This document shows positions 589-10,394 of a DNA stretch of 26,709 nt, in pieces. Location of the stretch: the IMG/VR virus record IMGVR_UViG_3300041809_003430, positions 1-26,709 of that record, one strand, 5' to 3'. This stretch comes from a virus. Position 1 is the first letter of the stretch. Each line of letters opens with the position of its first letter. The translations under genes and the position numbers were made by a program. Below the pieces are notes generated by a model. That model saw only the letters and a list, made by a program, of their open reading frames with translations. It was not told the origin of the DNA and ran no database searches.

Positions 589-664
589 AGCCCGGTGGTG
601 TAGTGGTCAAGCATAGAGGGCTTTGGACCCTCCGACGAGAGTTCGAATCTCTCCCGGGCTACCA
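589..664 (+). tRNA. tRNA-Gln (anticodon UUG), CCA encoded
   Basis: A full cloverleaf can be folded by hand. The acceptor stem pairs AGCCCGG with CCGGGCT (7 bp). The anticodon stem pairs GAGGG with CCCTC around the loop CTTTGGA, giving anticodon TTG. The T arm pairs GAGAG with CTCTC around TTCGAAT. The discriminator is A661, followed by an encoded CCA at 662-664. There is no sign of an intron. Its 3' half is a classic target for archaeal tyrosine integrases and it marks the change from host-like to accessory sequence. Confidence 0.95.
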
Positions 665-8794: not shown

Positions 8795-9331
8795 ATGTCA
8801 ATAGTTATTCCAGCCGCTGAAACGGTAAAGATCAGCGACATAAAGACGGACGGGCAAAACCCAAATAAGATGAGCAAAGACCAGCTCGAACGCCTTAAAA
8901 CTTCTATCAAGAAATGGGGCTTTATCGTTCCCATAATAACCAACAAAGACCTCTTAATCGCTGACGGAGAACAACGCTACACAGCCGCCAAAGCCCTGGG
9001 CATGACCAAAGTATTAGTTATCCGCCTACCCGTAGAAGATGTTGACCGCAGATTACTTAGACAGGTCTTAAACAAGCTCAGAGGCAGGCATGAACCTGAA
9101 CTTGACAGGGCTGAGTATGAACGTATTATCGAAGCGGGAAAAGAAGAAGAACTCAAGTATTTGGTTATGGTTTCCGATGAGAAACTCAAGAACCTTCTAA
9201 GCGAAGAAAAAGGCATAACGCTCGCTGCAACTTTTGAAGTTGTGCTTGAATGCGAAGACGAGGTTCACCAACAAGCCATCTTCAACAAACTAGTAGGTGA
9301 GGGGTACAAGTGCCGTCTTTTGACTTTGTAA
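8795..9331 (+). CDS. ParB/Srx-fold (ParB-like nuclease domain) protein
   Basis: A 178-residue product starting directly after the upstream stop. Residues 10-95 match the ParB N-terminal/sulfiredoxin fold: VKISDIKTDGQNPNKMS, LERLKTSIKKWGFIVPIIT, then the phosphate-binding signature ADGEQRYTAAKALGMTKV (DGEQR at 57-61). There is no HTH centromere-binding domain of full ParB, and the C-terminal 80 residues are helical and unassigned. Viral ParB-like proteins next to terminase genes have been linked to CTP- or ATP-dependent switching, nuclease activity or DNA modification. Here it precedes and overlaps the ABC ATPase gene by 22 bases, so the two are probably co-translated. Confidence 0.9.
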   Translation: MSIVIPAAETVKISDIKTDGQNPNKMSKDQLERLKTSIKKWGFIVPIITNKDLLIADGEQRYTAAKALGMTKVLVIRLPVEDVDRRLLRQVLNKLRGRHEPELDRAEYERIIEAGKEEELKYLVMVSDEKLKNLLSEEKGITLAATFEVVLECEDEVHQQAIFNKLVGEGYKCRLLTL

Positions 9332-9993
9332 GAACCTGGAATAAGCCAAACAGTTTCCGAGCGCAATCAGTCATCGGCAGCTTCACACTCGTTGATTGCA
9401 AGATGGAGAAACACTTCATCGGACAAATTCCGATTGAGAATAACGCTTGGCAGATCGGCGTTATAGTTGGTCGAAGCGGTACTGGTAAAACAAGCATAGC
9501 AAAAACTCTCTTCGCTGACAGCTACATCAAAGGTTTTGCTTACACGCATGAATCTATTCTCGACGACTTTCCTGAAGGACAACAAGTCAACGAGATAACT
9601 AAGAACCTCTGTAGCGTTGGTTTTGCTTCACCGCCTGATTGGCTCAAAAGCTACGATGCCCTCAGTCAAGGAGAGAAAATGCGGGTAGATATCGCAAGAG
9701 CTCTCAGCCTTGAGCAGCCACAAATCGTATTTGACGAATTTACAAGCGTCGTAGATAGGGAAATTGCTAAAGTTAGCGCTTACGCCATAAGCAAAGCCGT
9801 CCGAAGAACAAACAAGAAATTCATAGCAGTAACATGCCACTATGACGTTATCGACTGGCTTGATCCCGATTGGGTTTTCTGCACTGACACAATGGAGTTT
9901 AGCCGAAAAAAAGAAGCAGGCCGCCCGTTGAGCTCCAAGTTTATCGGTGCGGCGCTTCCATGTGGCAAATGTTTCGGCAATATCACTATCTAA
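9310..9993 (+). CDS. ABC-type ATPase, N-terminal half of a viral ATPase-GNAT protein
   Basis: A 227-residue product starting at GTG 9310 (VPSFDFVRTW), with GGTGAGG 6 bases upstream. It carries Walker A GRSGTGKTS (54-62), ABC signature LSQGEKMR (118-125), Walker B QIVFDEF (138-144, D142/E143) and the H-loop CH (H177), with no membrane partner. It resembles a phage family in which this soluble ABC ATPase is fused to a GNAT domain. The join is normally read as DWV...RRPPxEL...RC...W..F..HHYL. Here that joining sequence lies one base back: after the A7 run at 9906-9912 the -1 frame reads RSRPPVELQVYRCGASMW. The residues after the run in this frame (EAGRPLSSKF onward) are therefore probably not the conserved end. 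The role may be DNA modification or packaging. Confidence 0.88.
   Translation: MPSFDFVRTWNKPNSFRAQSVIGSFTLVDCKMEKHFIGQIPIENNAWQIGVIVGRSGTGKTSIAKTLFADSYIKGFAYTHESILDDFPEGQQVNEITKNLCSVGFASPPDWLKSYDALSQGEKMRVDIARALSLEQPQIVFDEFTSVVDREIAKVSAYAISKAVRRTNKKFIAVTCHYDVIDWLDPDWVFCTDTMEFSRKKEAGRPLSSKFIGAALPCGKCFGNITI
9906..9912 (+). other. A7 run: candidate -1 frameshift site joining ATPase and GNAT
   Basis: In the ATPase frame the codons are CGA AAA AAA GAA, so the heptamer reads A_AAA_AAA followed by G. Both tRNAs could re-pair perfectly one base back. The new frame then runs without a stop into the GNAT frame. A real slip, a split gene or an assembly error in a homopolymer are all possible. Confidence 0.55.
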
Positions 9994-10394
9994 ACGGCAA
10001 ACTTGGCGCCGGAGTCAGATGCTACGTAGCACTGTATAACGAAAAGCCCATTGCCTTTATCGCTGTGGCACATGTCCGCATGAAAGCACATTACTATCGG
10101 GTTAGCCGTCTTGTAGTTCTCCCCGATTATCAGGGAATAGGTGTTGGGAAGCGTCTGCTGAACTTTATCGCAGAACTCTACACATCCCAAACCAGACTGC
10201 CCTTCTACCTAATTACGAGCAACCCACAGCTAGTCCGCGGAGACCTTGGCAACTGGATCATTAAACGTGTTGGCCATGGCAGCCACGGCAGAGGCGACAC
10301 AAGAATAAACCGAGAACTCGTCAAATCAAACAGCCGCGGTCGCTTAACGGTATCACTAAAGTATGTGACTAAAATTCGCAAAATCTGCAGTTAA
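9960..10394 (+). CDS. GNAT-fold acyltransferase (Mom-like), normally the C-terminal half of the ATPase fusion
   Basis: 144 residues from ATG 9960, although the open frame extends further back through RPPVELQVYRCGAS and joins the ATPase frame near 9912. The start has only a weak CGGTGC upstream. The sequence shows the GNAT core: strand CYVALYNEKPIAFIAVAHV, then YYRVSRLVVLPDYQGIGVGKRLLNFIAELY with the acyl-CoA loop QGIGVG (58-63), then FYLITSNPQL. The RQYHYLNG opening and R-x-SRLVVLPD are hallmarks of the phage ATPase-associated GNAT. Phage Mu Mom, which adds an acetamido group to adenine in DNA, also has a GNAT-like fold. A DNA hypermodification role is therefore a reasonable but untested inference. 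Confidence 0.85.
   Translation: MWQMFRQYHYLNGKLGAGVRCYVALYNEKPIAFIAVAHVRMKAHYYRVSRLVVLPDYQGIGVGKRLLNFIAELYTSQTRLPFYLITSNPQLVRGDLGNWIIKRVGHGSHGRGDTRINRELVKSNSRGRLTVSLKYVTKIRKICS

Follow-up and report, generated by a model that had tools for sequence, protein, structure and literature searches.

To our knowledge, few prokaryotic gene families have frameshifting that is conserved across phyla, the textbook ones being dnaX, prfB and the tail chaperones. In dnaX a single gene yields two ATPase products that differ by a C-terminal domain, through an A-rich -1 site and a hairpin. Ribosomal -1 frameshifting has the anatomy of a short slip site with a hairpin after it, and a long run without a hairpin is what transcriptional slippage needs. 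The ABC ATPase-GNAT family considered here was reportedly described first in a paper of 2013. The prfB cassette consists of AGGGGG, 3 nt, CTT, a slow codon and C (PMC12421855), and in the tail-assembly chaperone (G-T) of tailed phages the two-product output is conserved but the shift goes in different directions in different phages (PMC5009743). A review of archaeal recoding lists fucA1 of Saccharolobus solfataricus as the sole proven example of -1 frameshifting in archaea to date, the few examples in haloviruses being only inferred (PMC8211752). The GNAT-ABC ATPase pair is predicted, in passages of a paper by the Aravind group, to make an unknown acyl modification of a DNA base (PMC7824862).

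The stretch of viral DNA analysed here, called the window, comprises 26,709 nucleotides (IMG/VR record IMGVR_UViG_3300041809_003430) and encodes this domain pair in two frames of one strand, with the following features.

8795 to 9331, plus strand: ParB-like gene directly upstream, with a 22-nt overlap with the ATPase start
9310 to 9993, plus strand: 0-frame ORF, ABC ATPase, from GTG 9310 to TAA 9991-9993, 227 residues
9894 to 9897, plus strand: sequence GGAG, a weak candidate for an internal stimulator of Shine-Dalgarno type, 8 nt ahead of A7
9903 to 10394, plus strand: GNAT acetyltransferase domain in the -1 frame, open just after TAG 9900-9902 and ending at TAA 10392-10394
9906 to 9912, plus strand: A_AAA_AAA, a slippery heptamer in phase with the ATPase frame, next base G; proposed site of the -1 slip
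9920 to 9953, plus strand: predicted stimulatory hairpin, after a 7-nt spacer from A7
9960 to 9962, plus strand: internal ATG in the GNAT frame, without a clear Shine-Dalgarno sequence and not conserved in the family
9991 to 9993, plus strand: stop codon of the short product, out of frame within the GNAT motif YHYLN

The initial annotation had placed the ATPase and GNAT frames one base apart, and the GNAT frame is indeed the -1 frame. It had also read RPPVELQVYRCGAS back from the GNAT ATG and had likened it to the join of a phage ATPase-GNAT fusion; RPPVELQVYRCGAS does stand upstream of ATG 9960. A single protein, PHROG 11143 (357 positions), spans both frames, with the ATPase at positions 11-201 and the GNAT at 197-355. 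Because this protein covers both frames nearly end to end, the two frames together amount to one known protein, and the window has the ABC ATPase followed by the GNAT of the PHROG 11143 type. The individual domains match ABC_tran (6e-09) and Acetyltransf_7 (6e-10), and the upstream gene matches Pfam ParB_N (2e-08). The GNAT matched general GNAT models only. A terminase gene and a portal gene lie 3' of the ATPase-GNAT gene.

The A7 run, proposed earlier as a -1 slip site, reads CGA AAA AAA GAA in the ATPase frame, which is the exact phase for tandem -1 slippage. Slippage there would give a fusion of 361 residues (201 + 160), and the natural fusion of one relative (L030) has 360 counted from its second residue; the unslipped product carries a 26-residue tail on the ATPase, read out of the GNAT frame. 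The hairpin, whose 7-nt spacer places it within the 5-9 nt downstream of the heptamer, has 8 G-C pairs, a bulged U and an inner A-U/G-U helix. A 53-nt stretch containing it folds at -25.3 kcal/mol, compared with -15.5 for shuffled sequences (z -3.67), and none of 200 shuffles is as stable. The outer stem is identical in all 18 distinct A7-type sequences, synonymous sites included, and there is no covariation in it because its 8 pairs never vary among these 18. The GGAG is a weak candidate for a stimulator, since it also encodes Met-Glu. A homopolymer of about nine or more, found in many relatives, does not occur at the junction of the window, and the prfB-like cassette AGG(A/G)GG, 3 nt, CTT in codon phase is absent from the window. 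Neither the hairpin nor the family-wide pattern described below figured in the initial annotation; both came out of the follow-up.

From the layout, the signals and their conservation we infer slippage, and a rate low enough to leave most ribosomes in the ATPase frame, and we put the probability that decoding of the gene in two frames is by design, with a -1 slip at A7 that yields a short ATPase and a fusion for mixed complexes, at about 0.87. Most ribosomes would stay in the ATPase frame across A7 and terminate at 9993, which would yield an ABC ATPase of 227 residues ending in a short tail, while the hairpin at 9920-9953 would hold up a fraction of them and lead to a one-base backward slip on A_AAA_AAA. 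The slipped ribosomes would continue in the GNAT frame to give the 361-residue ATPase-GNAT fusion. Short and long products may then assemble into mixed ABC complexes, with the acetyltransferase on only some of the subunits, and these complexes, together with the ParB-like protein encoded upstream, probably modify DNA bases with an acyl group.

A first search of viral contigs found 70 relatives, and scans of viral and genome contigs extended the family to 347 loci, of which 191 are unbroken, 143 are split at -1, 8 at +1 and 1 in another way, and 4 have no GNAT match. Clustering at 80% identity gave 156 clusters (86 unbroken, 61 at -1, 5 at +1, 4 others), which are not fully independent, so that the standard deviations and counts quoted here assume more independence than is real. 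Near relatives all have the GNAT in the -1 frame with A7 or A9 at the same place, and further relatives are unbroken, with A10 at the junction. The same -1 split occurs in annotated phages, namely Lactococcus P335, the Streptococcus Javan phages and MismyG, and Thomasclavelia TR-TP1, as well as in Oenococcus Vinitor-27 (A_AAG_GGC in phase) and Enterococcus 9184 (A_AAA_AAG in phase). Comparison with homologues, which the initial annotation had suggested, thus finds split and run in many contigs, Bathyarchaeota genomes and annotated phages; the homologues are not all unbroken, and those that are have recoding signals of their own. No relatives with the GNAT alone were found as an outside control, the two that lack an ATPase being contig ends. 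In 130 of 141 family clusters the ATPase is immediately preceded by a ParB-like ORF, which mostly overlaps it, and the commonest overlap is that of the window. In an ATPase tree in which many branches are weak, 23 parsimony changes separate the split, A10 and prfB-like forms. The split also causes misannotation in Enterococcus phage 9184 (L088, 2019-2849), in Lactococcus and Streptococcus phages (L072-L079) and in Thomasclavelia TR-TP1 (L081), where the records give the GNAT half its own entry, as a hypothetical protein or 'DNA polymerase', and call the ATPase an 'ABC iron siderophore transporter'.

Split and unbroken members share one feature, a stop codon of the GNAT+1 frame that falls within the motif HYL and is present in all 151 testable clusters (about 69 expected): 60/60 split (34.0 expected, sd 3.5), 86/86 unbroken (33.0 expected, sd 3.9) and 5/5 others. 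A later sample, which partly overlaps the first, has it in 77/77 loci. The HYL leucine is never CTT or CTC (0/144), codons that together make up 15-30% at four other conserved leucines used as controls, and the serine after HYL is AGY in 73/73. The stop as a by-product of the motif is ruled out by the codon-usage expectation and these control leucines. In addition, the GNAT+1 frame is open over the 21 codons before the HYL stop in 146/146 clusters (about 98 expected), and the GNAT-1 frame has no such excess of openness in the same comparison. In the split class the ATPase frame enters the tail and a -1 slip would give the fusion; in a prfB-like class, described below, the fusion is what the ATPase frame encodes, and the same tail would come from a +1 slip. 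Judged from sequence, the two classes would have the same two products and differ in the default one. Given the common stop and the open GNAT+1 frame, family members therefore look built to make a short ATPase with a tail of roughly 25 residues and an ATPase-GNAT fusion.

Among the split clusters, 51 of 59 carry a heptamer of the canonical X_XXY_YYZ form at the junction (29 A_AAA_AAA, 12 T_TTT_TTT and others), well beyond chance, as such heptamers occupy 0.58% of codons in the ATPase bodies. Some split members, e.g., Streptococcus phages with GTT TTT C, have a tetramer-type site only. Hairpins come after short slip sites, those of at most 7 nt (mean z -1.98, n=27 split clusters), but not after runs of 8 or more (mean z 0.09, n=26 split clusters; Mann-Whitney p=2.4e-05). 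Since hairpins follow only the short sites, this division suggests ribosomal -1 slippage at short sites and transcriptional slippage at long runs. In one clade with A9 to A12 runs (L278, L330 and four later-sample loci) the run length varies between close relatives, and the 0-frame product therefore differs between them; this variation may be real, slippage making the length neutral, or may be homopolymer assembly noise.

The unbroken relatives fall into two groups, neither of which, A10 or prfB-like, has a hairpin after the junction. In 19 unbroken clusters CAA AAA AAA AAT (A10) is kept, and a -1 shift there leads to an immediate stop in 17 of the 19. The 67 others are without a long A run, and 57 of them have the strict cassette NGG AGG (or GGG) NNN CTT (or GTT, GAA), usually followed by CGG CGA, with the fuller form AGG-AGG-NNN-CTT-CGG-C. 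Against expectations from each gene's own codon usage, the cassette Arg is AGG in 47/48 (3.2 expected), Leu is CTT in 47/47 (6.2 expected) and Val is GTT in 12/12 (2.1 expected); the Arg after the CTT position is CGG or AGG in 36/38 (10.3 expected), and the next Arg is CGA in 31/41 (5.4 expected). Conservation at the protein level as the cause of this motif is rejected, as the conservation goes beyond the residues to the codons themselves, in genes that range from 27 to 71% G+C. A +1 shift at the cassette opens 24-30 codons in nearly all members (41 in one), with one common end, and in 59/67 of this class the Shine-Dalgarno sequence has no start codon after it. In six planctomycete-type and other unbroken relatives (L127, L128, L131, L145, L165, L315), GAA AGG (or GAA AGT) replaces CTT CGG after the Shine-Dalgarno-like AGG. 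First-position +1 re-pairing is poor for the GTT or GAA members of the class, and because it is poor on GAA A, the GAA-type members may use another mechanism.

Transcriptional slippage, in which RNA polymerase adds or drops an A so that messages in either frame are present without any slip by the ribosome, would account for the A9, A10, A11 and A12 runs that stand at the same place in relatives, varying in length between close ones and lacking a hairpin, and for these long-run relatives it is the likelier reading. For the window it is improbable, as the run is only A7, set exactly in phase for a tandem slip and followed by a hairpin at the spacing of ribosomal sites, and as the T-run, A_AAG_GGC and G_GGA_AAG sites of other relatives are of ribosomal types. 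Still less credit is given to two separate proteins, that is, a broken fusion whose GNAT is made from an internal start or by translational coupling. The ATG at 9960 would serve such a start, and some ATG precedes HYL in 22/59 split clusters; however, any start codon with a Shine-Dalgarno sequence of 4 or more is found in only 6/59, the splits are nearly always at -1, and slip heptamers and open tail frames would be needless. An internal GNAT start as a family-wide device is rejected, neither start codons nor Shine-Dalgarno sequences being conserved, and in the window the ATG would be a minor alternative source of free GNAT.

A sequencing or assembly error, or a decaying gene, has the smallest share of probability. 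The break does fall in a homopolymer, and one relative, L138 (Nonomuraea turkmeniaca), stands alone among six unbroken relatives with a -1 break that has no slip site, probably an error or a decayed prophage gene. However, the 18 distinct A7 sequences come from different contigs and genomes and have the same run, hairpin and stop, and dozens of clusters reach the same outcome via other sites. The -1 bias of the splits (61 against 5 clusters) also speaks against random ones, which would have no frame preference. Because split and run recur across contigs, Bathyarchaeota and phages, sequencing error and recent split are both ruled out; of the two possibilities first raised for the window, programmed frameshift or recent split, the former stands.

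Among genomes, the closest relatives (85-89% identity) come from Bathyarchaeota assemblies, and one Bathyarchaeota contig has a gene for archaeal ribosomal protein L24e with window-like terminase pieces 11 kb away, from which it follows that these closest relatives are archaeal proviruses. The window itself most probably represents a tailed virus of Bathyarchaeota. Near its left end is a tRNA-Gln gene (anticodon TTG; 589-664, plus strand), which could be cargo or the remnant of an integration site. In one Bathyarchaeota provirus (L111, G002:C56:377699-378515) the terminase lies in two separate frames, and A7, hairpin and stop are kept at the ATPase-GNAT junction despite this. The predicted structure of L030 (mean pLDDT 81) shows an ABC ATPase and then a second alpha/beta domain as expected for a GNAT, with ordinary ABC ATPases as the top Foldseek matches. 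Searches with PADLOC and NCBIfam gave general ABC matches only (a local match to mad3) and no function. By analogy with tau and gamma of DnaX, ABC complexes that mix GNAT-bearing and GNAT-free subunits would, we infer, be needed.

Frameshifting as such is already known. A literature search confined to open-access papers found no report of frameshifting in the ABC ATPase-GNAT family; the novelty lies in the gene family itself, in the swapping of three decoding modes that lead to one output, and in a cassette of prfB type placed on sense codons. We consider it likely that this viral family, spread over phages of many bacterial phyla and Bathyarchaeota viruses, has been selected for the same two proteins with the means repeatedly swapped among a +1 slip at a prfB-like sense-codon cassette, a -1 slip with a hairpin and slippage of the polymerase along an extended run, with the same out-of-frame stop in the acetyltransferase motif always ending the short protein. 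The family would be a widespread addition to those with conserved frameshifting, and having three interchangeable modes with one output, it allows one to ask whether mechanism or product ratio is selected. It would carry the cassette known from prfB over to sense codons and to a further gene, and points to -1 frameshifting in viruses of Bathyarchaeota. It also suggests that the predicted DNA-modifying machine would need subunits with and without acetyltransferase, and corrects annotations that list both halves as unrelated genes.

Overall, the window has the domains, in the same order, of the PHROG 11143 phage proteins (e.g., of Tenacibaculum phage pT24), and a ParB-like neighbour is common to it and most relatives of the family; the passages of PMC7824862 that treat the domain pair do not mention frameshifting, whereas the window encodes the pair in two frames. 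With dnaX the window shares one gene that would give two ATPase products and an A-rich -1 slip site with a hairpin, but in dnaX the slip gives the short product and in the window it would give the long one, and the genes are unrelated. The unbroken relatives have the parts and spacing of prfB (AGG(A/G)GG, 3 nt, CTT, an often-rare codon, C) and no hairpin, but a sense codon, mostly CGG, takes the place of the prfB UGA, and the +1 shift would shorten their protein whereas that of prfB completes it. The likeness of fucA1, a cellular gene, to the window would lie in -1 frameshifting in archaeal translation. As in G-T, the output is conserved and the direction of the shift varies, in a different protein; unlike G-T, the ATPase-GNAT family appears to interchange +1 ribosomal, -1 ribosomal and probably transcriptional modes.
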